Shown: piece after piece, positions 1-44,260 of the stretch | Numbering within the stretch: position 1 is the first letter of the stretch | Layout of the letters: the number at the start of each line of letters is the position of its first letter | Source: a virus | DNA: 44,260 nt | IMG/VR virus record: IMGVR_UViG_3300012001_000001 | Coordinates: 1-44,260 of that record | Direction: 5' to 3' (one strand) | Program-made: the position numbers and the translations under genes | Notes under the pieces: generated by a model | What the model was told of the DNA's origin: nothing | Databases searched by the model: none | The model's input: the letters and a program-made list of their open reading frames with translations, nothing else

Positions 1-99
1 CGCTATTCCCAACGCTATCCCCAACGCTATTCCTAACGCTATTCCAAACGCTACTCCCAACGCTACTCCCAACGCTACTCCTAACGCTATTCCCAACGC
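1..99. repeat. Terminal redundancy, left copy (identical to 44162-44260)
   Basis: These 99 bases match the last 99 bases of the window exactly. An overlap of assembly-word size at both ends is what a circular contig gives, and removing one copy leaves a 44,161-bp circle. The overlap lies wholly inside a 12-nt tandem array, so it could also reflect a contig that broke in the array. The reading frame that continues across the join supports circularity. Confidence 0.8.
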
Positions 100-451
100 T
101 ATTCCCAACGCTATTCCTAACGCTACTCCCAACGCTACTCCTAACGCTATTCCCAACGCTATCCCCAACGCTATTCCTAACGCTATTCCAAACGCTACTC
201 CCAACGCTACTCCCAACGCTATTCCTAACGCTATTCCAAACGCTACTCCTAACGCTACTCCCAACGCTACTCCTAACGCTACTCCCAACGCTATCCCCAA
301 CGCTATCCCCAACGCTATTCCTAACGCTATTCCAAACGCTACTCCTAACGCTACTCCCAACGCTACTCCCAACGCTATCCCCAACGCTATTCCAAACGCT
401 ACTCCCAACGCTACTCCCAACGCTACTCCTAACGCTATTCCCAACGCTATT
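1..451 (-). repeat. 12-nt in-frame tandem array encoding [G/R/W][N/S/D]SV tetrapeptides
   Basis: About 37 consecutive 12-nt units fill this stretch. On the minus strand each unit is codon 1 GGG, AGG or TGG, codon 2 AAT, AGT or GAT, then invariant AGC GTT. The peptide is therefore a tetrapeptide repeat of Gly/Arg/Trp, then Asn/Ser/Asp, then Ser-Val. Variation is confined to one base of codon 1 and two bases of codon 2. Blocks of units recur as larger blocks: the first six units (Gly-Asn, Gly-Asp, Arg-Asn, Trp-Asn, Gly-Ser, Gly-Ser in plus-strand order) return at units 13-18. The true copy number may be collapsed by short-read assembly. Confidence 0.95.
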
Positions 452-715
452 TTCAAGCTCCTTAAATCCATTCTCTTTTTTTGATAATTCACGTATATAG
501 CTTGCTGCTAATTGACAACCCATAGGACTTTCTACGTATACAATCAATGGATCGGGTAAATTACAAAGTTTGTATAGCCATTTTATAGCCTTATTAGCCT
601 TATCCATATCTGGTTTCAATCGTTTCTCAGGATCAAATATTTTTGACATCCATTCATCTCTGGTAGCGATCATTAATTGTTCCTGTTCGGACGTGAGAGA
701 TTCTAATTTTTTCAT
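1..715 (-). CDS. DUF6745-type protein with tetrapeptide array, N-terminal part (continues at 44260-43506)
   Basis: This is the 5' part of a gene that crosses the circle join. Starting at ATG 715, about 88 residues form an N-terminal region ([13 protein letters not shown], later a segment with [14 protein letters not shown] and [13 protein letters not shown]). The tetrapeptide array follows, in frame, to base 1. The other part, 43506-44260, continues in the same frame and carries the DUF6745-like domain, giving a 456-residue protein. The family is known in many bacteria and phages, often with SV-rich repeats in the middle, but its function is not established. No Shine-Dalgarno is present; the leader is pyrimidine-rich (TTTTTCCTTTCTCCTT). 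The gene directly upstream (745-1065) is a frequent partner of this family. Confidence 0.85.
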
Positions 716-744
716 AAGGAGAAAGGAAAAATGGAGATAAAAAA

Positions 745-1065
745 TCAATCAATAACTTGTTTCATGTCCATGTCAATATATGAGTATTCCCTTTCCATAT
801 CGCGCCTATAGGTTCCGGGCTGAATTTCCACAGTAGAATGCTCTTCATGAGTGAGTATTCCTACTTCCATAAGAACAATATATAAATTTGTACCTGTCTG
901 AAATACTTTCATATTATTTGGATTCTTCACAGTCAAACGGTGCGAATGCCCGGTGACCTCTCCAAATGCTAATGGAAATTGACCCTTATGACTTATTAAT
1001 TCTCCTTCTGTCTTATAACATGGAACAAGGAGAACATCACCATGGCGGGCTAATTGTGCTGACAT
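745..1065 (-). CDS. Conserved small protein partner of the DUF6745 gene
   Basis: A 106-residue protein with the motif order RHGDVLLVP (near residue 7), GEVTGHSHRL (about 35), LTHEEHSTVEIQPGTYR (about 71) and EYSYIDMDMKQVID at the end. I recognise this as a short conserved protein often found beside DUF6745 genes. Its biochemical function is unknown to me. The His/Glu-rich motifs could bind metal, but that is inference. The gene is 29 bp upstream of the DUF6745 start and on the same strand, so co-expression from the promoter at 2067-2095 is likely. Its leader is pyrimidine-rich (TTTCTTACCCCCACTTTTT). Confidence 0.8.
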   Translation of the reverse strand: MSAQLARHGDVLLVPCYKTEGELISHKGQFPLAFGEVTGHSHRLTVKNPNNMKVFQTGTNLYIVLMEVGILTHEEHSTVEIQPGTYRRDMEREYSYIDMDMKQVID

Positions 1066-5762: not shown

Positions 5763-5965
5763 TGGACATCCAATGCATGAACTGTGGCAGAAGTATAGAC
5801 CAGTATTCACGCTGTATTAACAAGTGCATGTGTGAACACTACCCGTCGCACCACTATGACCCCGGTGAAGCTTTCTATTGTCAGTCCTGTGGAAGACTAG
5901 TACCATACAAGCAATGGACAGAAGGTAATGCGCACATGTATCCGTCCAGTGTTTCTACCGTTTAA
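5762..5965 (+). CDS. Small multi-Cys zinc protein (67 aa)
   Basis: Cys pairs CMNC (residues 5-8), CINKCMC (about 18-24) and CQSC (40-43), with His residues between them (EHYPSHHYD), suggest two zinc sites. It overlaps the upstream stop by one base (TAATG). No family is recognised. Confidence 0.6.
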   Translation: MDIQCMNCGRSIDQYSRCINKCMCEHYPSHHYDPGEAFYCQSCGRLVPYKQWTEGNAHMYPSSVSTV

Positions 5966-5983
5966 CTTATTTACGAAAAATCC

Positions 5984-6388
5984 ATGATTAAAAAGTGTTT
6001 CCGCTGTAAACATCGAAAATCCCTAAGCCGTTTTCACAAAGATAGAACCAATAAAGACGGCTATGCTTCTTCCTGTATTGAATGCCGGAGTACGAAGAAA
6101 AGTAAATTTATATCTGTAAAACCTATAAAGATTAAAATAACTCATGAAGAGGCACAGATTGATACAGTGAAAGAATTACATAAATCGAGTGTAGCAACTA
6201 CTCTTCCCTTCCCACATATACCTTTACAAAAAATAAATCTTCTTACACAGCTCTTAGAGAAGCTAGGCCATACATTCACTATCACAGTCCAGAAAAATAA
6301 GAAGTCATTCATACAGGTCCATTCTACCCCAAGTTTAGCCTACAGAGCGGAAACACCGGAGGAGTTACTTACAAAGATTCTTGGCTAA
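5984..6388 (+). CDS. Zinc-finger protein, endonuclease-VII-like N-terminus
   Basis: Residues 1-40 (CFRCKHRKSLSRFHKD..., NKDGYASSCIECR) match the paired CxxC finger that precedes phage recombination endonuclease VII/HNH domains. The remaining about 95 residues do not contain an HNH signature. They form a mixed Lys-rich and alpha/beta segment (LPFPHIPLQKINLLTQLLEKLGH). This is therefore a finger fused to an unrecognised domain, 134 residues in total. Confidence 0.6.
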   Translation: MIKKCFRCKHRKSLSRFHKDRTNKDGYASSCIECRSTKKSKFISVKPIKIKITHEEAQIDTVKELHKSSVATTLPFPHIPLQKINLLTQLLEKLGHTFTITVQKNKKSFIQVHSTPSLAYRAETPEELLTKILG

Positions 6389-6390
6389 CT

Positions 6391-6726
6391 ATGCAAAAAG
6401 GCATTGTCAAAGTCATCGAGCATAGAATGAAACGCATAAAAGATACATGGTGCTTTACCGTGAGGGCAGAGAGCGGCGGTGAAAGCCTAAAATTTGAAAT
6501 GTCCTGTCCGAACCACCAACTATCCCAAGAGAACCTAGACAAAATCAATGAATCATTTCGAAACAGCATCCGTTTCATGAAACATTACGCAGGATTTCCA
6601 AATAGAGAAGTATCCAAAGAAGACATGGATGCAGCCATGAATAAACTGACGAGCACCAACTACGGTATTGGAATTAGAATTTCAGAGGACCCATTGCCCG
6701 AATATACCCCATTCTTTCTGAGATGA
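6391..6726 (+). CDS. Hypothetical 111-aa protein
   Basis: The product begins MQKGIVKVIEHRMKRIKDTW and contains FEMSCPNHQLSQENLDKI. The start is 2 bp after the upstream stop, and its TGA overlaps the next ATG. Composition is that of a soluble alpha/beta protein. No function can be assigned. Confidence 0.6.
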   Translation: MQKGIVKVIEHRMKRIKDTWCFTVRAESGGESLKFEMSCPNHQLSQENLDKINESFRNSIRFMKHYAGFPNREVSKEDMDAAMNKLTSTNYGIGIRISEDPLPEYTPFFLR

Positions 6727-6974
6727 AAGCCACTGACCTTCCAAAGGCACAGGAAAAGGTAAAAGAATTATTTGATGATATTAAAGCCACGCCAGAATTT
6801 GACCGAAGACCTATGACATGGAACCAGTTAAATGCTATTAGATTAAAAACTATGAAAAGAAAAGAAACATGGCAAAATGTCGTACGTATCGTTATACTAA
6901 ACTTCCTTACGAAGACCGTATCTGATGAAGACCCATTTCTGCCGAAGTCCGTTATTAGCTTTTTAGAATTATAG
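6723..6974 (+). CDS. Hypothetical basic 83-aa protein
   Basis: This 83-residue Lys-rich product (MKATDLPKAQEKVKELFDD...) has a likely helical N-terminus and a hydrophobic centre (VVRIVILNFLTK). It is coupled to the upstream gene by ATGA. No family is recognised. Confidence 0.55.
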   Translation: MKATDLPKAQEKVKELFDDIKATPEFDRRPMTWNQLNAIRLKTMKRKETWQNVVRIVILNFLTKTVSDEDPFLPKSVISFLEL

Positions 6975-6976
6975 CA

Positions 6977-7144
6977 ATGCTCTACACTTATTTATGCACT
7001 TGTGGCACACTGCTAGAGAAGGATTTTCCCTTTGCCAAGCCACAGAAGGTGAAGTGTAAATGCGGGAAGAAGATGGAGAGAGTTATGCCGAAACTGAAAT
7101 ACATGCTAGCAGGTGAGAATTGGGCGGGGAAGTCAAGAGTTTAA
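6977..7144 (+). CDS. FmdB-like small zinc ribbon
   Basis: The 55-residue protein has YLCTCG (residues 5-10) and CKCG (27-30) with a short basic tail, resembling the FmdB/CxxC-CxxC putative regulatory ribbon family. Such ribbons bind zinc and often act as small regulators, but the target here is unknown. It lies 2 bp after its neighbour and just ahead of the packaging genes. Confidence 0.6.
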   Translation: MLYTYLCTCGTLLEKDFPFAKPQKVKCKCGKKMERVMPKLKYMLAGENWAGKSRV

Positions 7145-7159
7145 TTACACTAACTAATT

Positions 7160-7489
7160 ATGGATACAGTGAAGAAAGCAGTGAAAGAGGATAATCTAAA
7201 ACCCTTTAAGAAAGGCCAGTCAGGAAATGTAAACGGAAGACCGAAAGGAAGAAGGAATTTCGATACAATCTACTGGGAAGCCATGAGGAAGATTGGAGAA
7301 TCACAAAACATGACACCGGAAGAAGTTGAAGATATACTTGTAGAGTCTGGCCTAAATAATGCCTTAAAGGGGGATTACAGATTTTACCAAGATGCTATGG
7401 ATCGAAGACATGGGAAGCCCAAGCAGTCAGTAGGTATAGATGGAACAGGAGAGAATGGAGCTATTGAAATTCATATTAAAATGGTTTAA
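7160..7489 (+). CDS. Putative terminase small subunit (DUF5681-like)
   Basis: Residues 16-31 read FKKGQSGNVNGRPKGR, the hallmark of the DUF5681 family, which is commonly encoded beside phage large terminases. The middle is helical (MTPEEVEDILVESGLNNALKGDYRFYQDAMDRR). At 109 residues it fits a small terminase subunit, which would recognise viral DNA for packaging. TerL follows two genes later. The role is inferred from motif and position. Confidence 0.65.
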   Translation: MDTVKKAVKEDNLKPFKKGQSGNVNGRPKGRRNFDTIYWEAMRKIGESQNMTPEEVEDILVESGLNNALKGDYRFYQDAMDRRHGKPKQSVGIDGTGENGAIEIHIKMV

Positions 7490-7506
7490 TTTTCACTTAT
7501 TATTCT

Positions 7507-7722
7507 ATGAAATATATTCGAGTTGTTCTATGTAAAGGAAATCAAGTGCATCATCTCAATACAGATATGGAGATTTTGTTATTCAATAATAATATGTCTG
7601 AAGGCAAGCCTTTTACTGCTTCGTATTCTGGTGACTATTATAATCGGATTGATCCCAGTGACGTTATTTGTTGGAAAATTCAGGATACGAGCGAAGGATG
7701 TAGGCCTACATTCCAATATTAA
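7507..7722 (+). CDS. Hypothetical 71-aa protein in packaging cluster
   Basis: The product starts MKYIRVVLCKGNQVHHLN and ends WKIQDTSEGCRPTFQY. No motif is recognised. An overlapping frame (7523-7732) is less likely because this one starts closer to the upstream stop and leaves a clean gap to the next gene. Confidence 0.5.
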   Translation: MKYIRVVLCKGNQVHHLNTDMEILLFNNNMSEGKPFTASYSGDYYNRIDPSDVICWKIQDTSEGCRPTFQY

Positions 7723-7728
7723 AATAGT

Positions 7729-8349
7729 ATGAGCCACCACACCTTAAATTCTAGCGTTCCTCAACACCTATATGGGAACGTGTGCAAAGAAATTCTCTAT
7801 GGTCTGGATAAAGAGAAGATAGGACAATATGAACCGTGCGTTATTTTCGGTGTAACAAGTATCCCAAGCAGGGCACTTCACTTCTCTATTCTTTGTGAAT
7901 CCGGTGCGCAATGGGCAAGGATACCTCTTCACATGGTGAGACACCATGAACCTTCACAGAATGCAAAAAAACATCCCATGGAGTCTTTACAGTGTTGGGA
8001 TAGTCATGGATGGGACTTCTCTGTTACTCAATACGAATATTTAAGAGAGATGGGCTGTACGTACCGAACCCCGAAAGGAGAGGAGATACAAGCAAGCTAT
8101 TGGTTTACTCTTGACCACACTGACAACGGATATAGCCAATTCCCCTCGGAACATAAATGTTATCATCTACTTCTTTTAGAGGACGGGAGTGGCCAGATAG
8201 CTGCGATGCCTAACAATAGAATCATTTGGAAAGATCATTCTTTCTGTAAGCCTGGACATGACTTTCAATACAAGGTCATGGCTCCCATTACATGGCACGC
8301 TGAGGAAGGTAAAAGGAACCCGCAAGAAACTGCTATAACTCAAGAGTAG
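7729..8349 (+). CDS. Conserved terminase-adjacent phage protein of unknown function
   Basis: This 206-residue protein has a central segment, LQCWDSHGWDFSVTQYEYL, and a later one, HLLLLEDGSGQIAAMPNNRIIWKD. I associate both with an uncharacterised protein often found next to podovirus terminases. The protein is rich in His, Trp and Tyr. It has no visible catalytic motif. Its place between the TerS-like gene and TerL suggests a packaging or head role, but that is context only. Confidence 0.6.
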   Translation: MSHHTLNSSVPQHLYGNVCKEILYGLDKEKIGQYEPCVIFGVTSIPSRALHFSILCESGAQWARIPLHMVRHHEPSQNAKKHPMESLQCWDSHGWDFSVTQYEYLREMGCTYRTPKGEEIQASYWFTLDHTDNGYSQFPSEHKCYHLLLLEDGSGQIAAMPNNRIIWKDHSFCKPGHDFQYKVMAPITWHAEEGKRNPQETAITQE

Positions 8350-8373
8350 TGTATAGTCCTCCTACTAATAAAT

Positions 8374-9702
8374 ATGTCACAAGTTAATCTTCCCGTTTTA
8401 GATTATAGGGAATACCAAAAGCCTCTAGTTCGATATATGAGAGAAGGAAGACAAACAAAGATTCCTAGAAGGGCGGTATGGGTTGCACATCGTCGTAGCG
8501 GTAAGGACGTCACTTGCTGGGAAATTCTCATTGAAGAAGCTATACAAGAAGTCGGGACATATTATTATTGCCTTCCTGAGTTTAATCATGCCAGAAGAGT
8601 CATTTGGGACGGAATGCTTAATGATGGGCAGAGGTTTATTAATCTCATACCTCCTTCACTTATCAAGAAAACAAATGGGTCACAAATGACGATTGAATTG
8701 GTTAATAATTCTGTGATACAGCTAGTCGGGAGTGACCAGTACGACCGACTTGTAGGAACAAATCCTAAAGGTATTGTTTTCTCTGAATATTCCCTTACAC
8801 ATCCAATGGCTTGGCAGATACTACGCGCTATCCTTGCAGCGAATGGTGGATGGACAATCTTTAACGGAACACCAAGAGGGAAGAACCATTTTCACGAGAT
8901 GTTAGAACAAGCAAAGAAAGATCCTTCATGGTTTTGGGCTGTGGATACAGCATCTACTACGGGTGTTCTCTCACAGGAGATACTCGACAAAGAAAAGAGT
9001 GAAATGGATATAGATGTTTTCATGCAAGAGTATTTCTGTTCTTTTGATGCAGCTTCTAAGGGCGCGTATTACTCTGAACAGATAATGAGCTTTAGAGAGC
9101 AGAAACGTATGTGTAAAGTGCCTTATGATCCTAAATTGATGGTCTATACAGCATTTGACCCCGGCGACGCAGTGACTTCCATTGTCTATTTTCAAGTATA
9201 CGGTAAAGAGAAACGATTTATTGATGCAGATGAATTTTACTCGCCTTCTATTGAGCAGATATATACTACACTCACTCAAAAACCATATCAGTATGGCTTA
9301 CATTTCCTGCCGTTTGATGCAACGGTTAGCCAATTAACTACAGGAATGTCTATTATTGCTCAGTTGAGAACTTTAGGATTAAAGAATATCTATAGAAATG
9401 CAGACGGTGCTGATGGTTTGCCACAGCAAAAGTCCAAAATGGATGGTATTAAGCTCGTTCAAACAGCGTTCTCTTCATTCTGGATTGATGAATCACTAGA
9501 GAAGAAAGTATTAGAACCACTGTCTAATTATGCGCCAAAGTACTCAGAACTCCGCAGAACGTATTCAGATGAGCCAGAGCACAATTGGGCTTCACATATG
9601 AGTGATGCAATACGCTATGCAGTGATAGGGATCAATGAGGCTCTTACAGCTAAAACAAAACAAGTATCTAGAGAGAGAAAAAGTATTTACGCGGCTGGGT
9701 AA
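8374..9702 (+). CDS. terL: Terminase large subunit
   Basis: A packaging motor ATPase-nuclease of 442 residues. The Walker A is AHRRSGKDV (38-46), and the Walker B with catalytic Glu is GIVFSEY (133-139). The C-terminal RNase-H-like nuclease carries Asp262 (YTAFDPGDA), Asp315 (LPFDATVS) and Asp411 (SHMSDAIRYA). It translocates DNA into the prohead and cuts at the end of a packaging round. The length is typical. The headful or cos mode cannot be told from sequence; absence of defined long direct repeats fits a circularly permuted genome. Confidence 0.95.
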   Translation: MSQVNLPVLDYREYQKPLVRYMREGRQTKIPRRAVWVAHRRSGKDVTCWEILIEEAIQEVGTYYYCLPEFNHARRVIWDGMLNDGQRFINLIPPSLIKKTNGSQMTIELVNNSVIQLVGSDQYDRLVGTNPKGIVFSEYSLTHPMAWQILRAILAANGGWTIFNGTPRGKNHFHEMLEQAKKDPSWFWAVDTASTTGVLSQEILDKEKSEMDIDVFMQEYFCSFDAASKGAYYSEQIMSFREQKRMCKVPYDPKLMVYTAFDPGDAVTSIVYFQVYGKEKRFIDADEFYSPSIEQIYTTLTQKPYQYGLHFLPFDATVSQLTTGMSIIAQLRTLGLKNIYRNADGADGLPQQKSKMDGIKLVQTAFSSFWIDESLEKKVLEPLSNYAPKYSELRRTYSDEPEHNWASHMSDAIRYAVIGINEALTAKTKQVSRERKSIYAAG

Positions 9703-9725
9703 GTGTTTATACTTCCTAAAAATCT

Positions 9726-9896
9726 ATGAACCTCTTCTTTTGGAAAGACGGCACGAAGATACTTCATCAAGAAGAATTCATTGAAGATCCTCTATCAGAT
9801 GCACAAGAGCAAAGGCAGAAGATGGAAGACAGATTGGCGAAGAAGGCAAGGAAGGGTAAGGTACGGTCTATTCATTGGGATTATTTTAATCGTTAG
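9726..9896 (+). CDS. Hypothetical basic 56-aa protein between terL and portal
   Basis: The product begins MNLFFWKDGTKILHQEEF and has a strongly charged, helix-like centre (QRQKMEDRLAKKARKGK). It fills the gap between terL and the portal hairpin. No family is recognised. Confidence 0.55.
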   Translation: MNLFFWKDGTKILHQEEFIEDPLSDAQEQRQKMEDRLAKKARKGKVRSIHWDYFNR

Positions 9897-9941
9897 AATT
9901 GGTGGGAATAATCTCTTGCGTTCACTCTGGTATTCCGTATG

Positions 9942-9986
9942 ATTTCCATAGGAGTGTTCAATCCGGAACTGAACTCCTATGGAAAT
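9942..9986 (+). promoter_or_regulatory. Perfect 14-bp inverted repeat covering the portal start codon
   Basis: ATTTCCATAGGAGT (9942-9955) is the exact reverse complement of ACTCCTATGGAAAT (9973-9986), with an inner GTTC/GAAC pair (9956-9959 and 9966-9969). The portal ATG (9979-9981) lies in the right arm, so the start codon is buried when the RNA folds. The AGGAG in the left arm is paired too. This looks like translational control, or processing of the late transcript. There is no U-run after it, so it is not a standard terminator. Confidence 0.8.
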
Positions 9987-12168
9987 TACCAATGAGACAA
10001 CGGATGTTCTTTCTGCTAGAAAGTCAAAACTGTTTCCTTTCTTTCATGAGATAGACAAACAAGACAGATTGGATAATAGTGAACCAACAGGAGAGGAAAG
10101 AGAAACAGCGGCGCAGGACTGGGAAGACTGTCGATACATGATTGAGTATCGTAAGAACTCTGGATGGGACTCTAAGGCTATTCGCGGTATGAAGATATTT
10201 AACGTTGTGCAGACGATGCAGCCGGATGATGAGATTTCCCGTATCTTCTTAGGGAATACGCGTATGATTATTGACAAAGGTATTGAGCAGATGTCCGAAG
10301 GGGAACCGGATTTTGATTTTGAACCCTTTGGTCCGTCAGACCACACGAAAACAATTATCTGGAAACACTTGGTAAAGATGAATTTATCGAACTGCGATTA
10401 TAAGCTGCATCAAGGCAAGTTCTTCCGGGACTATTTTGTGATGGGCAGTGGTGTTTTTGATACGTATATTGACTTTCCACAGCGTACCATTCGTGTGCCA
10501 AACCCTGCATGGCCGGGTGGCTATGAGCCTATCGTGATACAGGACAGGAGACGGCCTAAGGTTGGTGTCAGAGCGGTGAACCCACTGAACTGCTGGCGTA
10601 ACCCGAACATTGATACGCCTTCGCAGGTGCCTTCCTGTCTGCGCCGCAGAAAAGTAACATGGAATCAGTTCGCACAGGAGTTTGGCCGCTGTAATGACAC
10701 GAATGGGGATAGTATGTATGAGAACTTGGAGAAAATAGCGAAGGGTTCACATGTCTGCCTGTACTATTACCAAGATGAATTGCGCGACATTTACCGTATC
10801 TATGCCAAGTCCTTTGGTACGGAGTCTGATGGTAAAGCGACCAGTCCTGAAATGGATTCTTTGGGTGTAAGAATATTGAATAAGCCGCTGAAGATTCATG
10901 AGCGCATGAAAGATAAGGTGGTGTACAGCTCTACAGGCTTAAACATTCCGGGTCTTTGCTCCCTGCGATGGGGCACATTCTTTGATGTCTATGATAAGGA
11001 CTATAGCGGGGAGCAGTCTGTGTATGGCATGGGATTGCCACAGCGTATTGAGGGTGAAGATACGGCCCTGCAGACCATGTTTAATTTGTATCTGGATAGT
11101 GAGCGTTGGGCTGGGACGGTGGCACTGAACTACAAAGGATCACAAGCAGACAGTTATATGGATGTCGATGCGAATAGACTCTATGGTGGCGAGCTTATTG
11201 ATGGTGAGATTACACCAATGCCGCTCGGTATTTCCCGCCCGAATGCCTTTACGTCCTTCCAAGAGGTTATTAACAATAGTACGATTCCTTCCACGGGTAT
11301 CAATCATCAACAGATGACAGGCGATACCTCGAAGACCGCGTTTGAATTTGCCCAGCGTATTAAGGCTGCCAATCGTGGTGCAGAACAACGACTGTCACGT
11401 ATGGAATCCGAAGTATTCAAGCCTGTAGGCACCTTAATGCTGGCAAACTCCTTAACGGTGCTCACCGTCAGTGACTATGAGGATATGACAGAAGAGCAGG
11501 TAGCAGCTGCCAAAGAATCCATTAAGACAGGTAAGAAGCCATTGGCAGATTACAAGGATTTGAACGGTGAAAAGCCGAAGCGCAAGGTGATCCAATACAT
11601 TCCGATGAAAGGTGAGAAGTTCCGTGAAGACTTTACCGTGACCAAAAAACGGAAGCTGGATTATAATGCAAATTATACAAAGACAGGGAACACTACGAAT
11701 ACATTGATACCGGATAAGAGCATGAAGGTAGAGACGAGCTATGTTCCGATGACAGAGGAGTACGTGTATCCAACAGAATACATTGAGTCTGGTATGTTGC
11801 CGGACTGTATTGTGGATTCCAAGAGAATGTTGGGAGATATGAAGGCGCAGGACGTACAGAACTGGCAAGCTGCGACAAACTTCCTCTTGCAGCTGATGCA
11901 AGCCGGGTATAAGAATATTGATATGGATAAGCTCGCAGCGGGAACCCTGGAATTTGCCGGTATTGATGCTGGTAAAATGCTCAATACGGATACAGGAAGC
12001 TCTGAATTGCTCACCAAAGTAAAAGACCTTATTACCCAAATGCAAGATCCTGCTGCCGGACAAAATGCACAACCGACACAAGCAATGCCTGCCGCTCCAA
12101 CACCTATGCCAGCCGCTCCAAACCCTGCCTCTCATCCATTAGCTGCCGTTGCGTCGGGTACGCTTTAA
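9979..12168 (+). CDS. Portal protein
   Basis: At 729 residues this matches the large portals of podoviruses in size and position after terL. It would form the dodecameric ring through which DNA enters and to which the tail adaptor binds. Typical stretches are YMIEYRKNSGWDSKAIRGM (about 54-73), DYFVMGSGVFDTYIDF (about 150-165), VNPLNCWRNPNID, and a late helical region (TSKTAFEFAQRIKAANRGAEQ). The C-terminus is a Pro/Ala/Gln-rich tail. Its start codon is inside the strong hairpin described separately. Confidence 0.85.
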   Translation: MEITNETTDVLSARKSKLFPFFHEIDKQDRLDNSEPTGEERETAAQDWEDCRYMIEYRKNSGWDSKAIRGMKIFNVVQTMQPDDEISRIFLGNTRMIIDKGIEQMSEGEPDFDFEPFGPSDHTKTIIWKHLVKMNLSNCDYKLHQGKFFRDYFVMGSGVFDTYIDFPQRTIRVPNPAWPGGYEPIVIQDRRRPKVGVRAVNPLNCWRNPNIDTPSQVPSCLRRRKVTWNQFAQEFGRCNDTNGDSMYENLEKIAKGSHVCLYYYQDELRDIYRIYAKSFGTESDGKATSPEMDSLGVRILNKPLKIHERMKDKVVYSSTGLNIPGLCSLRWGTFFDVYDKDYSGEQSVYGMGLPQRIEGEDTALQTMFNLYLDSERWAGTVALNYKGSQADSYMDVDANRLYGGELIDGEITPMPLGISRPNAFTSFQEVINNSTIPSTGINHQQMTGDTSKTAFEFAQRIKAANRGAEQRLSRMESEVFKPVGTLMLANSLTVLTVSDYEDMTEEQVAAAKESIKTGKKPLADYKDLNGEKPKRKVIQYIPMKGEKFREDFTVTKKRKLDYNANYTKTGNTTNTLIPDKSMKVETSYVPMTEEYVYPTEYIESGMLPDCIVDSKRMLGDMKAQDVQNWQAATNFLLQLMQAGYKNIDMDKLAAGTLEFAGIDAGKMLNTDTGSSELLTKVKDLITQMQDPAAGQNAQPTQAMPAAPTPMPAAPNPASHPLAAVASGTL

Positions 12169-12186
12169 TCTATTTCTTTTAGCTGT

Positions 12187-12480
12187 ATGTGGTTTATCCG
12201 TAAATTCTTATTGAAGCTCACACAGGAACAGATTTTTCCGTCGGTAGAAGATATGGAAACTCTAAGTGCGTTCTCCAAGAAGCAACGAAGGAGCTTATAC
12301 AAGCGCCTCACACAGCTTTCCTATACCTGTAACCGCGAGCAAGACCGTATGGGGGCACTGTTTATTAGAAACCAGTTAATGGCTGATACCAAGAGCAAGG
12401 TCAATGAATTTGAGGAAGAGATACAATTGCGCTCCCGTCCTTCTCATTTCATTCCTGACGCTTTGAAAGATGAAGCCTAA
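12187..12480 (+). CDS. Hypothetical 97-aa head-region protein
   Basis: A basic, helix-rich product starting MWFIRKFLLKLTQEQIFPS, with FSKKQRRSLYKRLTQLSYTCNREQ. It lies between portal and scaffold genes and overlaps the next gene by 11 nt. No family is recognised. Confidence 0.6.
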   Translation: MWFIRKFLLKLTQEQIFPSVEDMETLSAFSKKQRRSLYKRLTQLSYTCNREQDRMGALFIRNQLMADTKSKVNEFEEEIQLRSRPSHFIPDALKDEA

Positions 12481-12643
12481 CAGATACCATAAGATCGTCA
12501 TCAATATCTATTTGCAAGAACGAACCATTCCACGCACTGTGGCGGTACTGGGGCAGCTTTGTGGTGAGCCATATAAAACAGACAGCTTTGTACGCAAAAT
12601 CATAAAATCTTACAATCTTACAAAGGATGCCGCTCTACGTTAA
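12470..12643 (+). CDS. Hypothetical 57-aa protein
   Basis: The product starts MKPNRYHKIVINIYLQERTI and contains VAVLGQLCGEPYKTDSFVRKII, which has the feel of a small helix-turn-helix without a firm match. It overlaps the preceding gene in another frame. The support is position and composition only. Confidence 0.45.
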   Translation: MKPNRYHKIVINIYLQERTIPRTVAVLGQLCGEPYKTDSFVRKIIKSYNLTKDAALR

Positions 12644-12814
12644 GCGGTGTACGTTATCAGTCGTTAAATGGAACGTGATACTGTGCGAACAGTTCTCTTG
12701 TTCCTTTTCAACAACGCTGACCAAATAATCAAACTTGTGGCTGAGTTTTGGGGGCTTTCACTCCCGTCCCCGAAACCTAGTCACAAGCTAGAATATCACT
12801 TTCCAACTTCTACT

Positions 12815-13414
12815 ATGCCCACTAACGATGACGGCACCGGAGCAAGCCCTACTGCCACAGACGTTAACGCTTCTCAAATTGATGTGACTGCGCTTACACC
12901 AGAACAACTGGAAGCACACCCACATGTACAGGATTTGAAGAAGAAGTACTCAGCTGCACACCAAGACATGGATAAAACAAATCTCTCCAAAAAAGAGTTA
13001 CAATCTGAAATTGCCCGTCTTAAAGTTCTTGCAGGCGAAGAAGTACAAGCCGAAGAAATAAAGGCAGACGAACCACAGTATGTAACCAAAGCAGAACTAC
13101 AGGAACAGGCGTGGGAATTACAGAACGCCAAAGATGTAGATTTGTATGGGGACGATGAGTATAAGAATGATTTAGTAAGTGGTATTCCCCGTGAATACGC
13201 ACTAAAGACCGCTAAATTGCGCTTTCAATCCATGCCCGACAATGTGAGATTACAGCGTCAGCAGGTTATGGCTTCTGGTACCGCTGTTGGTGCGCGTGGT
13301 TTGTCAGACGTAGATGTTACGGATGCAGACAGGCGTGGCATGGCTGAATTCGGATACTCCGAAGAAACAGTACGGAAGCATAAGCAAATGAAAAGGGAAC
13401 GGGGACAAATTTGA
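12815..13414 (+). CDS. Putative scaffolding protein
   Basis: The chosen start, ATG 12815, follows the pyrimidine leader TTTCCAACTTCTACT and gives 199 residues; a start at 12668 would add a hydrophobic 49-aa extension. The protein is acidic and Ala/Gln/Glu-rich with a coiled-coil middle (DLKKKYSAAHQDMDKTNLSKKELQSEI in overlapping heptads) and a basic C-terminus (RKHKQMKRERGQI). That design is common to phage scaffolds that guide capsid assembly. It sits directly before the capsid genes. Confidence 0.65.
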   Translation: MPTNDDGTGASPTATDVNASQIDVTALTPEQLEAHPHVQDLKKKYSAAHQDMDKTNLSKKELQSEIARLKVLAGEEVQAEEIKADEPQYVTKAELQEQAWELQNAKDVDLYGDDEYKNDLVSGIPREYALKTAKLRFQSMPDNVRLQRQQVMASGTAVGARGLSDVDVTDADRRGMAEFGYSEETVRKHKQMKRERGQI

Positions 13415-13433
13415 TCCCTTTCCTTTACAACTT

Positions 13434-13874
13434 ATGGAATATTCTTTCAGTGAAAAACGAGTATGCAATGCATTCTCACGTTTGACAGGCAAGTCTCGGT
13501 ATATGACATTTGATTCATCTGGCACCATTGCCGCAGGCTCTTCCGCGCAGTTCGATGAGAACGGTGAAGTAGCGATTGCTGCCACGAATAAGCAGAATGT
13601 AGGCGTCAACCTTGCCGCTTCTACCTCTGCTACACAGGCAACGCTGGATATTATTGATGATAGTTCACAGTGGCGTTGCACGACCTTCACCGGTACGTAT
13701 GCCGCTTCTTATATCGGTCAGCAGGTAGACATTACCGCGGGCTTGACTGTGGCTTTGGCAACTTCTACCAACAACGACTGTACGGTTATTGGAGGTGACG
13801 TAGCAGGCCAGACCTATGTCGATATTGTCTTCAACCAAGGCGGCTTAGCTAAGCACGTCGTTGGTGTGGAATAA
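13434..13874 (+). CDS. Putative capsid decoration/head protein
   Basis: A 146-residue Ala/Thr/Gly-rich beta-type protein (TFDSSGTIAAGSSAQFDENGEV..., then YIGQQVDITAGLTVALATST). The position between scaffold and major capsid genes and the composition resemble small capsid cement proteins. It has no signal peptide. The function is inferred from position. Confidence 0.55.
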   Translation: MEYSFSEKRVCNAFSRLTGKSRYMTFDSSGTIAAGSSAQFDENGEVAIAATNKQNVGVNLAASTSATQATLDIIDDSSQWRCTTFTGTYAASYIGQQVDITAGLTVALATSTNNDCTVIGGDVAGQTYVDIVFNQGGLAKHVVGVE

Positions 13875-13914
13875 TTTCTCTTTGTACTCTCTTTTCTCTC
13901 TTCTCTTCTAATTT

Positions 13915-14958
13915 ATGGCATATAACACAATAACCGCTAACGAATTCGTAGACAACGTTGAGCGAACCGTCCTTGAACAGCTCAAGGATTCCAAGCCTAA
14001 CCTCGTTCGTTCGCTGTTCAGCTCTGTCCCCTGGAATCCAGGTGACGGTGAAAAAGTAACGTTTAACTCTATTGCTCTGTCCGGCTTTGCGCCTCGCGTG
14101 GTAGAAAATGACAACTATTCTGTTGTCAATCCTTCCAAGGGTAATGAATTGTCCAAGACACAGATCCAGTTTGGTGACAAATTGCAGATCACGCGCCGTA
14201 TGATGAAATTCAATAACCGCTATGCCCGTGCAAAGTTTGATGCACAGGACTTGGTCGGTCGTTTGAAGGCTTCTCTTGACTTGGAAATGACCATGCAGGC
14301 GTTTGCAGAGGCAGACGTAACAACCTTTACGCCACTTGGCGCATTGAGTGCGTATAACATTGCCACGTCTGATGGACAGGCTCTCGCTTCCACGGCACAC
14401 GTTTACGGTGGTGTCACATTCTCCAATATCCTGAATAATGCCACACAGGCAGGCGGTCTTGGTCCAGTCCTCTCTATTGGTAACCTTACCAGTGCCATTA
14501 CGGCAATGGGACAGAATACACCGGATGACTTTGGTACTAACCTTTCTGTCAGCCCGGACACCATTGTTATCGCGAATAACCAGCACATGATTGTGAAGTG
14601 TCACCAGATGTTCGGATCGTCCCTTACACCTGAATCCGCTAACAACGCTGTGAACTATTACGGTGGAACAGGACAGTTTAAGGTTGTCGCGTTGAACTAT
14701 GGTCACTCCACTCCTACGGGAACAGTGAACACCACCGCTGCTACCACGAATATGAACCGCTGGATGGTTGCAGACTCACGTCTGACCGCTCGCTCATGGC
14801 AGTTGATGATGGCCGAAGAGCCAACGACGGAACAGAAGTTCGTGAGTGAGGATAACGTAATTGCCAGCATTCTTGTTACACAGTTCGCTTCTTACGGCAT
14901 TGTCCAGCCACAGGGAACGATGTATTCGTTGTCCATTACGCAGCCTACTCTGAGCTAA
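13915..14958 (+). CDS. Major capsid protein
   Basis: The 347-residue protein begins MAYNTITANEFVDNVERTVL and is rich in Asn, Thr and Ala. It has SLDLEMTMQAFAEADV and a late segment KFVSEDNVIASILVTQFASYGIVQP, typical of HK97-fold capsid subunits in this genomic position. It follows the scaffold and decoration genes and has a long pyrimidine leader. I do not see the canonical N-terminal delta-domain, which agrees with a separate scaffold. Confidence 0.8.
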   Translation: MAYNTITANEFVDNVERTVLEQLKDSKPNLVRSLFSSVPWNPGDGEKVTFNSIALSGFAPRVVENDNYSVVNPSKGNELSKTQIQFGDKLQITRRMMKFNNRYARAKFDAQDLVGRLKASLDLEMTMQAFAEADVTTFTPLGALSAYNIATSDGQALASTAHVYGGVTFSNILNNATQAGGLGPVLSIGNLTSAITAMGQNTPDDFGTNLSVSPDTIVIANNQHMIVKCHQMFGSSLTPESANNAVNYYGGTGQFKVVALNYGHSTPTGTVNTTAATTNMNRWMVADSRLTARSWQLMMAEEPTTEQKFVSEDNVIASILVTQFASYGIVQPQGTMYSLSITQPTLS

Positions 14959-14987
14959 ATTCTATTTAAATTTTAACCCTTTAGTTT

Positions 14988-15536
14988 ATGTCAGGTTTTA
15001 CTTATATATTACTGGGACTTGCGACGATTATATCGTCTCAAATTACGGGATTAACGTCTTGGATTGTCGGATCACAGATTTTTCAAGGAAATATCTTCTT
15101 CGATACGACAAATAATGCTGCGCCAAGTATTATGACCAATACTATTGCGAATGCTACCTACCCTAAGGTTATCCCCTTCGTAGCAAGCGGACACACGGCA
15201 CTCATTGCCAGTCTCGCTATGCCGCAAGCCTATTCATCCGGTGCATTGATTGTCTCTTACTCCGTGGAATGCGGTGGCGTACAGATCGCAACCAGTGGAT
15301 CACTTGTGGTGCAGAGTGGACTCAAGCAAGACAAAGGAACAGGTCTTGTTTTACGTACAGGCGTGTCCGTCAGTACGGGTTCTGTTACAGGTATGAGTAC
15401 AGGAACGGTCGTCGCGTCGAAGATCCAAAAGTCTTATTTACTGAATTTCATTACCACAGCTTCAGGTAGTAAAAACTCAGGAGTAATTGCTGATTGTGTC
15501 GCACATCCGTTTCTTCGGGAAAAATACGGTAGATAA
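14988..15536 (+). CDS. Virion-region protein with N-terminal hydrophobic segment
   Basis: A 182-residue product whose first about 27 residues are hydrophobic (MSGFTYILLGLATIISS, then GLTSWIV). The rest is Ser/Thr/Gly/Val-rich beta-type sequence (IASLAMPQAYSSGALIVSYS). It might be a head fibre or decoration protein with an anchor. Finding such a segment on a gene between capsid and adaptor is unusual. The function is not assigned. Confidence 0.6.
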   Translation: MSGFTYILLGLATIISSQITGLTSWIVGSQIFQGNIFFDTTNNAAPSIMTNTIANATYPKVIPFVASGHTALIASLAMPQAYSSGALIVSYSVECGGVQIATSGSLVVQSGLKQDKGTGLVLRTGVSVSTGSVTGMSTGTVVASKIQKSYLLNFITTASGSKNSGVIADCVAHPFLREKYGR

Positions 15537-15555
15537 ATTCCTTGTTCATTCTCTG

Positions 15556-15576
15556 CTGGCCACAAAGTGTGGCCAG
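15556..15576 (+). other. Strong hairpin downstream of a capsid-region gene
   Basis: CTGGCCACA (15556-15564) and TGTGGCCAG (15568-15576) form a perfect 9-bp stem with a 3-nt loop, 17 bp after the stop at 15536. No T-run follows on either strand, so it is more likely an RNA-stability element, a rho-independent-like pause or an attenuator than a full terminator. It would set expression of the capsid group apart from later genes. Confidence 0.6.
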
Positions 15577-15616
15577 AAATGAATGTACTTCTCTTCACTT
15601 CTTTCCACCCTTGTAT

Positions 15617-16078
15617 ATGGCAGATGGCCCAGACTTTGAAAAACTATTCATGGAAATGAAAGCCCTGAATGCAGAAACGAACTTGAAAGAAATACTACGG
15701 TATTTGCGCTTCTCAAAAGATGAAGGTGCCATGTACCAGAATTATTTGCGCCACTACCTTCCACTGCTTCCTAAGGAGAACCTTGGTGAGTTCATTGATG
15801 ATGTTGTGGACTCCAAAGGGGATACAGACAAAGAATTTGCCGATTCTTTGTATGAGAAGTTTAAAGAGAAAAAAGAGGAAGTTATTGTAAAAGATCCTCC
15901 TGTAATAGAAGGAACCGAAACGACCATTGTTCCTACAACTGAAACAACAATTGTTCCTGTAACCAAAACGACCATTGTTTCTACAGAGGATGTAGAGGCA
16001 GCAGCAGCGAAGAAGGCAGCTACCTCTGCCAAGCGTGCTGCAACTATGGCAGCGAATAGGGCACTAAAGACTAAGTAA
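15617..16078 (+). CDS. Hypothetical protein with Thr/Val-rich repeats and Lys/Ala tail
   Basis: ATG 15617 is preferred over 15542 because the extra 25 residues would cover the hairpin. The product has 153 residues: an acidic helical first half (MADGPDFEKLFMEMKALN..., YLPLLPKENLGEFIDDVVD), then three imperfect copies of ETTIVPTT-like peptide. It ends in a Lys/Ala-rich tail (AAAAKKAATSAKRAATM) that resembles a histone-like DNA-binding tail. A head-interior role is possible. Confidence 0.6.
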   Translation: MADGPDFEKLFMEMKALNAETNLKEILRYLRFSKDEGAMYQNYLRHYLPLLPKENLGEFIDDVVDSKGDTDKEFADSLYEKFKEKKEEVIVKDPPVIEGTETTIVPTTETTIVPVTKTTIVSTEDVEAAAAKKAATSAKRAATMAANRALKTK

Positions 16079-16097
16079 TTTTTCACTTCTCTTTTTT

Positions 16098-16442
16098 ATG
16101 AACGCTATTACAACGTATGACGCATCGGTGACAGGAGTAGTTGAACTGCTGGCAGTCGGCTACTGCAACCTTGAATCTGTAGAAATTGAGAATCCGAACA
16201 CGACTGTTGTGTACTTACAGCTGTTTGATTCTGCTACTACTGCTGCGGTGACTCTTGGAACGACCGTACCTAATACGACACGTCTTATTCCTGCCGGTGA
16301 CGGTGTGGCAAGTGGCGTACGTATTATCGAGTTTAATGCACCACTGCGCTTCGGAAGCGGCATTGTCTATGCCATTACCACCACACGCTCTGACAATACT
16401 TCGCCTGCTTCCGTGTGTCAGATTAATTTTGCACGAAGTTAA
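16098..16442 (+). CDS. Putative small virion protein (114 aa)
   Basis: A beta-rich product (MNAITTYDASVTGVVELLAV..., then NTTVVYLQLFDSATTAAVTLGTTVPNTT) resembling small head-decoration or fibre-tip domains of phages. The leader is TTTTTCACTTCTCTTTTTT with no Shine-Dalgarno. It lies between capsid and adaptor genes. Confidence 0.55.
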   Translation: MNAITTYDASVTGVVELLAVGYCNLESVEIENPNTTVVYLQLFDSATTAAVTLGTTVPNTTRLIPAGDGVASGVRIIEFNAPLRFGSGIVYAITTTRSDNTSPASVCQINFARS

Positions 16443-16462
16443 GTCTTTACCTCTCTTAAACC

Positions 16463-16996
16463 ATGTCTAACGATATTGTTTCACCACCGGGCATCTTCCG
16501 AAGAATTGCCGTTGCGGCCGCGGGAATTATCACGTTGGTTGGTACTGGTGTGGCTTTCACTATTCTTGCGCCGAGTAACAATAACACACTTACTAATCAG
16601 ATAAAGACTGCTGATGGAAGATCTGCATGGTATGTAACAAGCAGTGGATCAACGACGCAATCCGGCAGCTTACGAGTACGCGGTGCGTTATCCGGTTCCA
16701 CTCTTCAAATAGGCGGAACAACTGCCACGCTGACAAACTTTCTTACAAATACGGCAACGCTCGATTTCGCTAACCTTGCCGTTGCAAGCTGTGAACTTTT
16801 GACAATTACGGTGAATGGCGCTGCTGATGGTGATCCTGTCACACTAGGTGTCCCGAATGGAAGTCAGGTAACCAATGGATTTTTCAGCGCCTACGTTTCA
16901 GCTACTAATACTGTTTCCGTAAAATTCTGCGCCGTTATTTCCGGTGATCCGACTTCAGGAACGTTCCGCGTCGATGTTCTGAAAACAACTCCATAA
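16463..16996 (+). CDS. Membrane-segment-bearing head fibre/decoration-like protein
   Basis: Residues 15-36 (IAVAAAGIITLVGTGVAFTIL) form a clear hydrophobic segment. The C-terminal half, from LDFANLAVASCELLTITV to TSGTFRVDVLK, resembles a module I associate with phage head fibres and tail-tip proteins. The protein is 177 residues. A transmembrane anchor on a virion protein is unusual and may point to insertion into a membrane or to export. Confidence 0.6.
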   Translation: MSNDIVSPPGIFRRIAVAAAGIITLVGTGVAFTILAPSNNNTLTNQIKTADGRSAWYVTSSGSTTQSGSLRVRGALSGSTLQIGGTTATLTNFLTNTATLDFANLAVASCELLTITVNGAADGDPVTLGVPNGSQVTNGFFSAYVSATNTVSVKFCAVISGDPTSGTFRVDVLKTTP

Positions 16997-17070
16997 TCCT
17001 CATTCCCTCCTTCTTTCCGGTGTCACTGATTACATGTAACTAATTTTTATATCTTCATCTTCGCCTTTTC

Positions 17071-17952
17071 ATGGCTTCGCCCGCTGGTTCAACCATCATC
17101 GACTTGGCACGCGGTCTGATACGTGAAGAACTTGGCAGCGATGTGCCGTCTGTATCTGATGCGTTCATGCTGTCATTTATATCTGATGCTGATAAGGAAT
17201 TGCTACGCGCTTTTCGGAAAGGTGGTGGCAATACACCGTCTGCCAGTGCCAGAGAGACAGGCTATACACTTGCCTCTGACACAGCCATTAACGATGTCGC
17301 AGGGATAACCTCTGCTTCCGTCACGATTACGGTTGATTCCACGACGGGTTTTGCCGTTTCCGGTACAGCCGTTATCTGGGACGGGGAGGCCTTTGATATT
17401 TTCTCGTACACAGGCATTACCGCTACGTCCTTTACAGGTGTGACAGGCATTGCGTTTGACCATGAAGACAATACCGAAATACAGGCTGTATATGTCCTCC
17501 CTACGAACTTTAAAGCATTCAGACGGACAGAGGACTATGGAGACGGGGTACTACTGAATAGTGCGCCACTGACCTATATGGAAGCACCGCCAAATGCTGG
17601 CAGATTCTCTATTGTGGACGATGGAACGAATAAGTACTTGTGGTTGTACCGTGGCGCCTCTGGCGAGGCATCCGTGTATTATGATAAGACGTCGCCAACG
17701 ATTGATACAATTGACGATACGGTGAGTTTTGATGAGGAATATACGTATTTCTACGTGTGGCGCTGCATCGAAATGTCACTATTTGGCCGAGGGGACTATG
17801 CCATTATCGGACTCGCCAAGCAAAAGGGTGACGCTATTAAACTCGATGCCTTGAAAGATAGGAATATCGGCAGGCGTTTGCGTGTGCGCCAGTTTGGCTC
17901 TGTTGGTGACAGGAATTTTGAGCGCCTTGCTATACGGGAAAGTTCACTATGA
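17071..17952 (+). CDS. Head-tail adaptor-like protein
   Basis: The 293-residue protein begins STIIDLARGLIREELGS and has a later helix-rich segment (DEEYTYFYVWRCIEMSLFGRGDYA). This matches the size, order and flavour of podovirus adaptors that bind the portal and start the tail. The middle contains an inserted beta module (ASVTITVDSTTGFAVSGTAVIW). It overlaps the nozzle-like gene by ATGA. Confidence 0.65.
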   Translation: MASPAGSTIIDLARGLIREELGSDVPSVSDAFMLSFISDADKELLRAFRKGGGNTPSASARETGYTLASDTAINDVAGITSASVTITVDSTTGFAVSGTAVIWDGEAFDIFSYTGITATSFTGVTGIAFDHEDNTEIQAVYVLPTNFKAFRRTEDYGDGVLLNSAPLTYMEAPPNAGRFSIVDDGTNKYLWLYRGASGEASVYYDKTSPTIDTIDDTVSFDEEYTYFYVWRCIEMSLFGRGDYAIIGLAKQKGDAIKLDALKDRNIGRRLRVRQFGSVGDRNFERLAIRESSL

Positions 17953-34149: not shown

Positions 34150-35319
34150 TTAATCTTTCCAAGGGTCTACAATATCCTTTCCAGCCATAGCAACTCCAAT
34201 AGGCCGGAGCGTGTGCAAAATCTTGATCGTCCCGGCGTGCTCTTTCAGGACTTCTGGTAGGCGACGGTATGCTTGCGGTGCTTCATCAAGGTCAGCCCCT
34301 CGCAGGCATACCCCCTTGTCGTTGACCCATTTCATCATCTCATCATGTCGGACCAGACCGGGTTGACGTTGCTTCTTACCGTTCTCATCGCGCACGAAAC
34401 GACCACGAGCAGCGGTACGGCTCATAACCCGCCCGGCACCATGAACAGTCGAATAGAGGGATCTAGCAGACAGTGTAGAATCGACTCCTTCAATTATTAC
34501 TGCATTATCGCCCATTGATCCTCCGACAAATCCTTTTTGTCCGGGGAAAGCAGGGGTGGCACCCTTTCGTATTACCCACATGTCTTCGTCGAAATGGTTC
34601 TCACGCCACGCGAAATTATGATGATTGTGAATTTCCTCAGTAATATGCGCACCGATAATCTTCGTAGAAACAAGCCGAGCGACGTATTCACGTCCTGCAT
34701 AGGCGTAGCGTCCAGCCAGATTCATGGCAGCGATATAACCCTGTCCTAGTTCGCTTTCTTCATCTATAAGAGTGGGAGGTACATCCATGCCGTCTTTCCC
34801 ACCCGCGAGTGACAGGAATTTGGTGGCCGTTCCGTGTCCGAAGCCTCGGGAACCAAAGTGCACGCCAACCCATATCCATCCTTCTTCATCCTCAAAAATA
34901 TCGACGTAGTGATTGCCCGAGCCGACCGTGCCAAGTTGGGCAGCGGCCTTTTGCTTCATGGAGTGAATTTCCGGCATCGACCACGCTTCGTCATTAAATA
35001 GCTCATGGTCAATAGGCGTGTCGTTGTACCGACCTACGCCAAACGAGATTTGGGCAACCATGTCATCCATAATCTTGTTAATATGAGGCAGGACATCTAC
35101 GAGCCGGGCATCTGTTTTACAAGCCAAGTTCCCGCAGGCAATGTCGAAGCCGACACCTGAAACAGATATTTTTCCTTTATAGGCAACAACACCACCTACG
35201 GGCTGGGAATAGCCCTTGTGGCCGTCTGCGCATAATACTGCGTGCGTTCCACCTACATTGAGACAGGTTTCCATTTGTAGCAGAGTTCCATCATCATGGT
35301 TTCCAAAGATAGTAAACAT
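34150..35319 (-). CDS. rtcB: RNA-splicing ligase RtcB
   Basis: This GTP- and Mn2+-dependent ligase joins 2',3'-cyclic phosphate and 5'-OH RNA ends. Family residues are present: GVGFDIACGN with Asp59 and Cys62, GSGNHYVD with His137, VHFGSRGFGH with His154 and His162, HNHHNF with His233/234, and TVHGAGRVMS with the guanylylated His293. At 389 residues it is slightly short but complete. Archease is not seen. A phage might use it to repair tRNAs cut by host anticodon nucleases or to ligate other RNAs. A tRNA-like RNA lies about 4.6 kb away on the same strand. Confidence 0.9.
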   Translation of the reverse strand: MFTIFGNHDDGTLLQMETCLNVGGTHAVLCADGHKGYSQPVGGVVAYKGKISVSGVGFDIACGNLACKTDARLVDVLPHINKIMDDMVAQISFGVGRYNDTPIDHELFNDEAWSMPEIHSMKQKAAAQLGTVGSGNHYVDIFEDEEGWIWVGVHFGSRGFGHGTATKFLSLAGGKDGMDVPPTLIDEESELGQGYIAAMNLAGRYAYAGREYVARLVSTKIIGAHITEEIHNHHNFAWRENHFDEDMWVIRKGATPAFPGQKGFVGGSMGDNAVIIEGVDSTLSARSLYSTVHGAGRVMSRTAARGRFVRDENGKKQRQPGLVRHDEMMKWVNDKGVCLRGADLDEAPQAYRRLPEVLKEHAGTIKILHTLRPIGVAMAGKDIVDPWKD

Positions 35320-43505: not shown

Positions 43506-44260
43506 TTATGCTTCTACGGTTAATGAATTATATTGCTCTAAAGTTAACCCAAACTTCCATGCTTGGCATAAATCTGCGTCCAAATTCTTTCCTATTTCCG
43601 GGTCTATACCACTAACATAGACACGGGCTGTAGACGGGCAAACATACTTGAGATAATAGGCTGTCTGCGAAAATACATTGTCAATCTTATAAAGCATATT
43701 TCCCCTATCTGATCTATTAATTAGCTCTGCTTTAGTAGATTCTAATAGCTTTTCTGGACCTATTAATTTTAACGCAGCCATACGCTTTTCCATATTCTCA
43801 AGTCCTAAAATGTATTTCATACTGACTTTTTTTGCCGTTATTTTTTTAAATACTTCTGGCTCAAAAAATATACCATATAAATAATGTTGTCCGTAGCCGT
43901 CTGGCCACTGAATAGCGTATCCATCGGTACAATGCAGCTGCATTTGTTCGCGCACTTCAGTCCTCTCAATTTTTGTTGGCATTGGACAGACGATACACAG
44001 TTTATCAAACTGAATCATGTCATAAATTCCTGCATCTAATAAATTTAAAAATGTATCAAAATTCTCATCTTTGACTATTCCTATTTTTCGGAAATAATCA
44101 TAAAATGCACACCATCCATAGTCTCTAATTGATCCATACCAGCAGAATCCAAAATACTCAACGCTATTCCCAACGCTATCCCCAACGCTATTCCTAACGC
44201 TATTCCAAACGCTACTCCCAACGCTACTCCCAACGCTACTCCTAACGCTATTCCCAACGC
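43506..44260 (-). CDS. DUF6745-type protein, C-terminal part (starts at 715 across the join)
   Basis: In frame from the array, the sequence runs SVEYFGFCWYGSIRDYGWC, FYDYFRKIGIVKDENF, and then the DUF6745-like domain. That domain has DGYAIQWPDGYGQHYLYGIFF, then ILGLENMEKRMAALKLIGPEKLL, and the end VYVSGIDPEI, LCQAWKFGLTLEQYNSL. The last pieces match the characteristic C-terminus of DUF6745 proteins. This domain is of unknown function. An internal start at 44018 would drop the array but is less likely because the upstream frame is open. Confidence 0.85.
   Translation of the reverse strand, partial: VGNSVRSSVGSSVGSSVWNSVRNSVGDSVGNSVEYFGFCWYGSIRDYGWCAFYDYFRKIGIVKDENFDTFLNLLDAGIYDMIQFDKLCIVCPMPTKIERTEVREQMQLHCTDGYAIQWPDGYGQHYLYGIFFEPEVFKKITAKKVSMKYILGLENMEKRMAALKLIGPEKLLESTKAELINRSDRGNMLYKIDNVFSQTAYYLKYVCPSTARVYVSGIDPEIGKNLDADLCQAWKFGLTLEQYNSLTVEA
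44160..44260 (-). repeat. Tetrapeptide array, right end of the window
   Basis: The same 12-nt units as at 1-451, from the first unit next to GAG TAT (Glu-Tyr) on the minus strand. Joined to the left copy, the array has 37 full units plus a final NSV. Confidence 0.9.
44162..44260. repeat. Terminal redundancy, right copy (identical to 1-99)
   Basis: Exact 99-base repeat of the window start. Treat one copy as assembly overlap when building the circle. Confidence 0.8.

Follow-up and report, generated by a model that had tools for sequence, protein, structure and literature searches.

What kind of protein carries the long tetrapeptide array that lies across the ends of the viral record IMGVR_UViG_3300012001_000001 (IMG/VR), and what could such an array do for a phage? 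The whole record of 44,260 nucleotides, hereafter the window, was analyzed.

A DUF6745 protein with a tetrapeptide array encoded across the record ends

The preliminary description had proposed a single DUF6745-type gene of 456 residues spanning the join of the record ends. The analysis confirmed this frame on the minus strand, which runs from 715 to 1 and then from 44161 to 43506, with a length of 1371 nt (456 aa and a stop codon). In the encoded protein, the N-terminal part (residues 1–87) is followed by the array (residues 88–239) and by the C-terminal DUF6745 part. According to the protein scan, the C-terminal part matches the Pfam family DUF6745 (PF20530) with 38.4 bits at a cut-off of 27 (E = 1.1e-9). 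The conserved columns of the family alignment (H, A, D-G, G, N) are present in it, the window carrying LHCTDGYAIQWPDGYG and ENMEKR at the aligned places. The N-terminal part shows an identity of 41% with that of the relative L206 and 36% with that of L207, and is common to relatives with and without arrays. Since four of the six reading frames across the array contain no stops, the array does not single out one frame; it is the conserved flanks that do so. The architecture, the frame and the DUF6745 family membership of the window protein are established by these data (Table 1).

Table 1. Coordinates of the array gene and of the terminal repeat in the window
Feature	Position	Strand	Remark
Gene start and conserved N-terminal part (residues 1–87, includes ...VESPMGCQ...)	455..715	-	Same part in relatives with and without arrays
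Tetrapeptide array, nearly all (ENSV + 37 × [GRW][NSD]SV, 12-bp units)	1..454	-	Repeat and frame analysis
Final 2 bp at the C-terminal edge of the array	44160..44161	-	Joined frame; visible only after end joining
C-terminal part of the gene and stop codon	43506..44159	-	Frame open through the join
Pfam DUF6745 (PF20530) match, profile positions 44–202 of 206	43524..44012	-	Above the Pfam cut-off
Terminal direct repeat, left copy	1..99	.	Entirely array sequence
Terminal direct repeat, right copy	44162..44260	.	Entirely array sequence; second reading of the array

No obvious Shine-Dalgarno sequence was found in the region 716–748 (minus strand) ahead of the ATG at 715, and where the upstream gene stops there is an in-frame TTG (748). 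The array gene is not part of the structural block; it is surrounded by small genes, with a replication-initiation-like gene and an HNH gene close by. Elsewhere in the window, an RtcB-like RNA ligase gene was identified (34150–35319, minus strand; phrog_1075, E = 6e-67).

The array consists of 38 consecutive xxSV units, namely, one ENSV followed by 37 [GRW][NSD]SV units, which are built from just six 12-bp sequences. Three variable bases per unit had been reported previously; among the 37 units these are bases 1, 4 and 5 only, with bases 2 and 3 deviating solely in the ENSV unit, and the sequence AGCGTT is invariant in all units of the window. The share of repeats, given earlier as about one third of the protein, is exactly that (152 of 456 residues). 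The array is not a product of chance, since its TRF score of 636 (37.6 copies) greatly exceeds all others in the window. Repeated four-unit words number 12 in the array versus 0.75 in shuffles, as would be given by segmental duplication.

Relatives and variation of the array

With the window C-domain as a single query, no relatives were found among viral and genome contigs; therefore, the family alignment and relatives were used as queries. Pattern matches that were antisense or of unrelated low complexity (TPTV, SLSL) were excluded by hand. The N-terminal part, a period-4 array and DUF6745 are encoded in one unbroken frame in L125, L126, L129, L206 and prophiGD102-1, so that the C-terminal part does not form a separate gene in them, as it might have done had the single-gene reading been wrong. 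A Manatee Spring siphovirus has the same layout, its units being [GERW]SSL, and the Mycobacterium abscessus prophage prophiGD102-1 contains 46 [GRW][DG]QL units. Many IMG/VR phages have DSV/ASV, DQV, SQL or NI units in the equivalent place. In total, the array types of phage and prophage relatives are xxSV, xxSL, xxQV, xxQL and xxNI, and some relatives have no array. The statement that Ser-Val never varies is true in the window but does not extend to the relatives, which use SL, QV, QL and NI instead. At L206:3001- an odd unit code occurs, with Cys, Tyr, Ser, Gly or Arg as residue 1, and at L207:3001- NI replaces SV in the units.

The array design is common among environmental phages. The protein closest by C-domain, L125 (41% identity), has 85 units. 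Across 63 arrays of at least eight units each (taken from DUF6745 proteins, a second phage protein type and mycobacteriophage Tweety gp54, some of them shortened by record ends), the length ranges from 8 to 85 units; the window's 38 units tie for tenth longest and many arrays are equally regular, so that the length and regularity considered exceptional in the preliminary description are not. The window thus contains a real gene with a real array, ordinary for the DUF6745 family.

The array is an insert and not a core element, because MaMV-DC, an Aulosira plasmid, L127 and L131 have both conserved parts but an array that is small or missing, and the linker of a Streptomyces plasmid member is non-repetitive. 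Weak Pfam, NCBIfam and PADLOC matches within arrays (YpjP, GvpQ, REase_II, FliH) were judged to be repeat-driven, and PADLOC gave no other match. The DUF6745 family is little studied: the literature searched yielded no paper naming it and no measured function for any of its proteins. A scan of genome contigs with alignment A6 found one relative only, a result that barely informs about the bacterial distribution, as the single degenerate pattern of A6 is poor; the phylum search around the genome found covered just 46 genomes.

The preliminary description had also suggested that copy number and the choice of residues 1 and 2 are tuned, and both do vary. The relatives L159 and L161 have 50 and 32 units, respectively, in a different order, with 174 of 207 C-domain residues identical (84%). 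In 50 DUF6745 arrays, the variants of residue 1 present in at least two units comprised 1 synonymous and 107 nonsynonymous ones (27% synonymous expected), and those of residue 2 comprised 3 and 62, respectively (20% synonymous expected); these counts are not independent, since arrays share ancestry and inherited unit types are recounted, which inflates p-values. Amino acid changes account for 169 of the 173 repeated-unit variants at residues 1–2. In the same 50 arrays, variants of residues 3 and 4 are few and without nonsynonymous bias, and in 54 of the 63 arrays variation is lowest at third codon positions. There is strong support for in-frame gain, loss and reordering of 12-bp units in the array, and equally for the view that spreading unit variants alter residues 1–2 while the last two residues stay. 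Judging from the relatives compared, array length and order appear to change fast.

3D modeling of the relative L126 in AlphaFold2 gave a pLDDT of about 90–95 for the N- and C-terminal parts, with the array as two long helices, mostly at pLDDT 40–60. The model of the window N-terminal part plus array gave a similar picture, the array being a low-confidence helix. Over the AlphaFold2 models, array pLDDT was about 36–60; near-perfect repeats are a known weak point of this program, which misjudges them (PMC11795689). A helical stalk is only a guess for the array because of the low confidence of these helices. A Foldseek search against the PDB with the full model as query gave no match below E 0.001, and VIA-align matches were set aside as long helices or hits of middling Z.

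Low model confidence is also what would be seen if the array were a neutral minisatellite, expanded by slippage or recombination in a linker that tolerates any length, with copy number meaningless. Repetitive linkers are often unstructured, and both the wide spread of array lengths and the absence or degeneration of the array in some relatives agree with this explanation. However, the spreading variants are nearly all nonsynonymous at residues 1–2, with hardly any at residue 3, which is against the neutral expectation. In addition, units of this kind, with a variable residue 1, a residue 2 that is small or acidic and an unchanging final pair, are found again in the second phage protein type and in Tweety gp54. 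We consider neutrality unlikely, though it deserves serious attention.

Conservation in DUF6745 proteins is highest in the C-domain, and this would fit a captured host protein tied to the STM4011–4015 radical-SAM pathway or to another cellular process, for which the array is a mere tether. A cellular role is hinted at by arrayless bacterial DUF6745 genes that adjoin STM4011–STM4015 genes on Streptomyces and Deinococcus plasmids (L148, L150). Still, these were the only two bacterial cluster loci inspected, and the family as a whole may not share the link; no STM401x gene occurs among the window genes examined. Such a capture is quite doubtful. The Deinococcus DUF6745 protein has a leucine-rich-repeat-like N-terminal part.

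Record ends and reliability of the unit count

The terminal direct repeat is exactly 99 bp long and would close the record into a circle of 44,161 bp. The break between the record ends falls 2 bp within the array, at its C-terminal edge, where a random cut point would rarely land. Similar cuts affect relatives: at 58 loci fetched by C-domain, 22 upstream record ends lie at most 700 bp from the DUF6745 domain, that is, in the array or linker region, whereas the 4,300 bp beyond contain only 4 (p ~1e-15). Both ends of IMGVR_UViG_3300031716_000030 (35.5 kb) are inside its own array, without overlap, and L154 and L167 proved to be truncated versions of L153 and L169. Tetrapeptide arrays break many viral assemblies, and a viral record may be called circular or complete on the strength of an overlap within such an array.

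The pure array overlap, the cut at the array edge and the clustering of relatives' record ends near the DUF6745 domain would all be seen if the ends had been falsely joined inside the repeat, the true array being longer, shorter or split over two genes. Against such an artefact, no exact internal repeat of the window array reaches 80 bp, so that the 99-bp overlap is longer than any of them, and for this reason the join is plausible. Moreover, the N- and C-terminal parts both match the DUF6745 family, and relatives encode all three parts in a single unbroken frame. An artefact of this kind is improbable, and the circularity of the window is weakly supported. The 37 [GRW][NSD]SV units first reported are indeed present in the record after the ENSV unit; this exact number is unsafe, because the overlap used for circle closure consists of array sequence and the cut is 2 bp from the array edge. 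It is the assembler's count, an estimate that may be wrong. We think that the gene is real even if the count is not correct.

The terminase search for sister records found L205 (IMGVR_UViG_3300014031_000014, 17.8 kb) and three short fragments. L205 is 100% identical to window positions 5814–19699 (13,886 bp) and is, by this identity, evidently a second record of the window's phage. As L205 does not contain the array region and the other records are short fragments, no same-species comparison of copy number was available.

A diversity-generating retroelement rewriting the variable bases, which the confinement of variation to three bases per unit could bring to mind, was rejected as having practically no chance of being correct, since no reverse transcriptase (RVT_1) was detected in the record although the controls were, and base 1 is G, A or T with G the commonest, so that the variation is not adenine-directed.

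Proposed role and comparison with known systems

We tentatively favor, at slightly less than an even chance, an accessory phage protein in which the array would be a length-variable, frame-safe spacer between conserved parts, working in the manner of the Tweety gp54 counter-defence protein. A tetrapeptide array of variable length would be inserted between the conserved N-terminal part and the conserved C-terminal DUF6745 domain. As a helical or flexible spacer, it may set the distance and register between these two parts or between two partners, and it may also carry a varied surface. Changes in copy number would then retune the protein without frameshifts. By analogy only, this would be a non-essential host-interaction protein, most likely acting in counter-defence.

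Among known families, the window protein shares the C-domain with DUF6745 (PF20530; phage PHROG 31813), and its order of N-terminal part, array and C-terminal part is seen in many phages. Unlike the window protein, many members of this family (from a Streptomyces plasmid, Aulosira and Microcystis phages) lack a regular array.

In addition, a second type of phage array protein, with [GRW][DA]SV units, was found in L019, L045, L049, L069, L072, L078, L097 and L112; its C-tail is like FDGKTWRLHSGE. The units are like those of the window, whereas the N- and C-flanks differ (hhalign probabilities of 0.1–0.2% for L112), and the members scanned matched no Pfam or PHROG family. The comparison suggests that the period-4 module appears repeatedly, also in phage proteins whose flanks are unrelated.

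A four-residue period with small residues is also found in the glycine-repeat helices of FliH/YscL, AxxxG(xxxG)mxxxA, which have a variable repeat number and are predicted to be helical (PMC2674601). In contrast to the window array, the FliH repeats are short (m averaging 2–10), and this is a likeness of pattern.

The closest parallel is Tweety gp54, which contains 48 copies of a 12-bp unit encoding AA[GWQ][SY], with invariant third codon positions; the copy number is 48, 26 and 15 in Tweety gp54, Che8 gp57 and PMC gp51, respectively, and the pattern of variants was considered by its authors to be consistent with selection for variation (PMC2884959). According to two reviews, defence-escape mutants of Tweety gp54 gain or lose tetrapeptides and thereby acquire activity against one prophage defence or another (PMC9262239, PMC8549241). 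A changed tetrapeptide number switches which prophage defence is beaten, and this is the precedent for the role proposed here. A counter-defence role has been established genetically for Tweety gp54, in distinction to DUF6745 proteins. The Tweety N-flank compared with the DUF6745 family profile gave an hhalign probability of 0.2%, indicating no homology, and the window N-terminal part plus array had no match to PHROG 3416, the family of Tweety gp54, which Tweety itself matches at 1e-142. On the flanks compared, the window protein does not appear to belong with Tweety gp54, and it would work like it at most by analogy, without detectable shared ancestry. What the two have in common is 12-bp tetrapeptide units, two fixed and two varied residues per unit, third codon positions without variation and a copy number varying among relatives. 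The direction of the bias in DUF6745 arrays is likewise the one reported for Tweety gp54 (PMC2884959).

It is conceivable, although we hold it to be unlikely, that DUF6745 array proteins constitute a widespread group of phage counter-defence proteins, tunable and so far not described, in which in-frame gain and loss of 12 bp would act as an evolvable retargeting dial and on whose period-4 module unrelated families would have converged. The likeness to a tunable counter-defence protein makes this family worth testing. If array length tunes DUF6745 proteins as it does Tweety gp54, what is now one well-studied curiosity would represent a widespread means by which phages adapt quickly and reversibly to bacterial defences.
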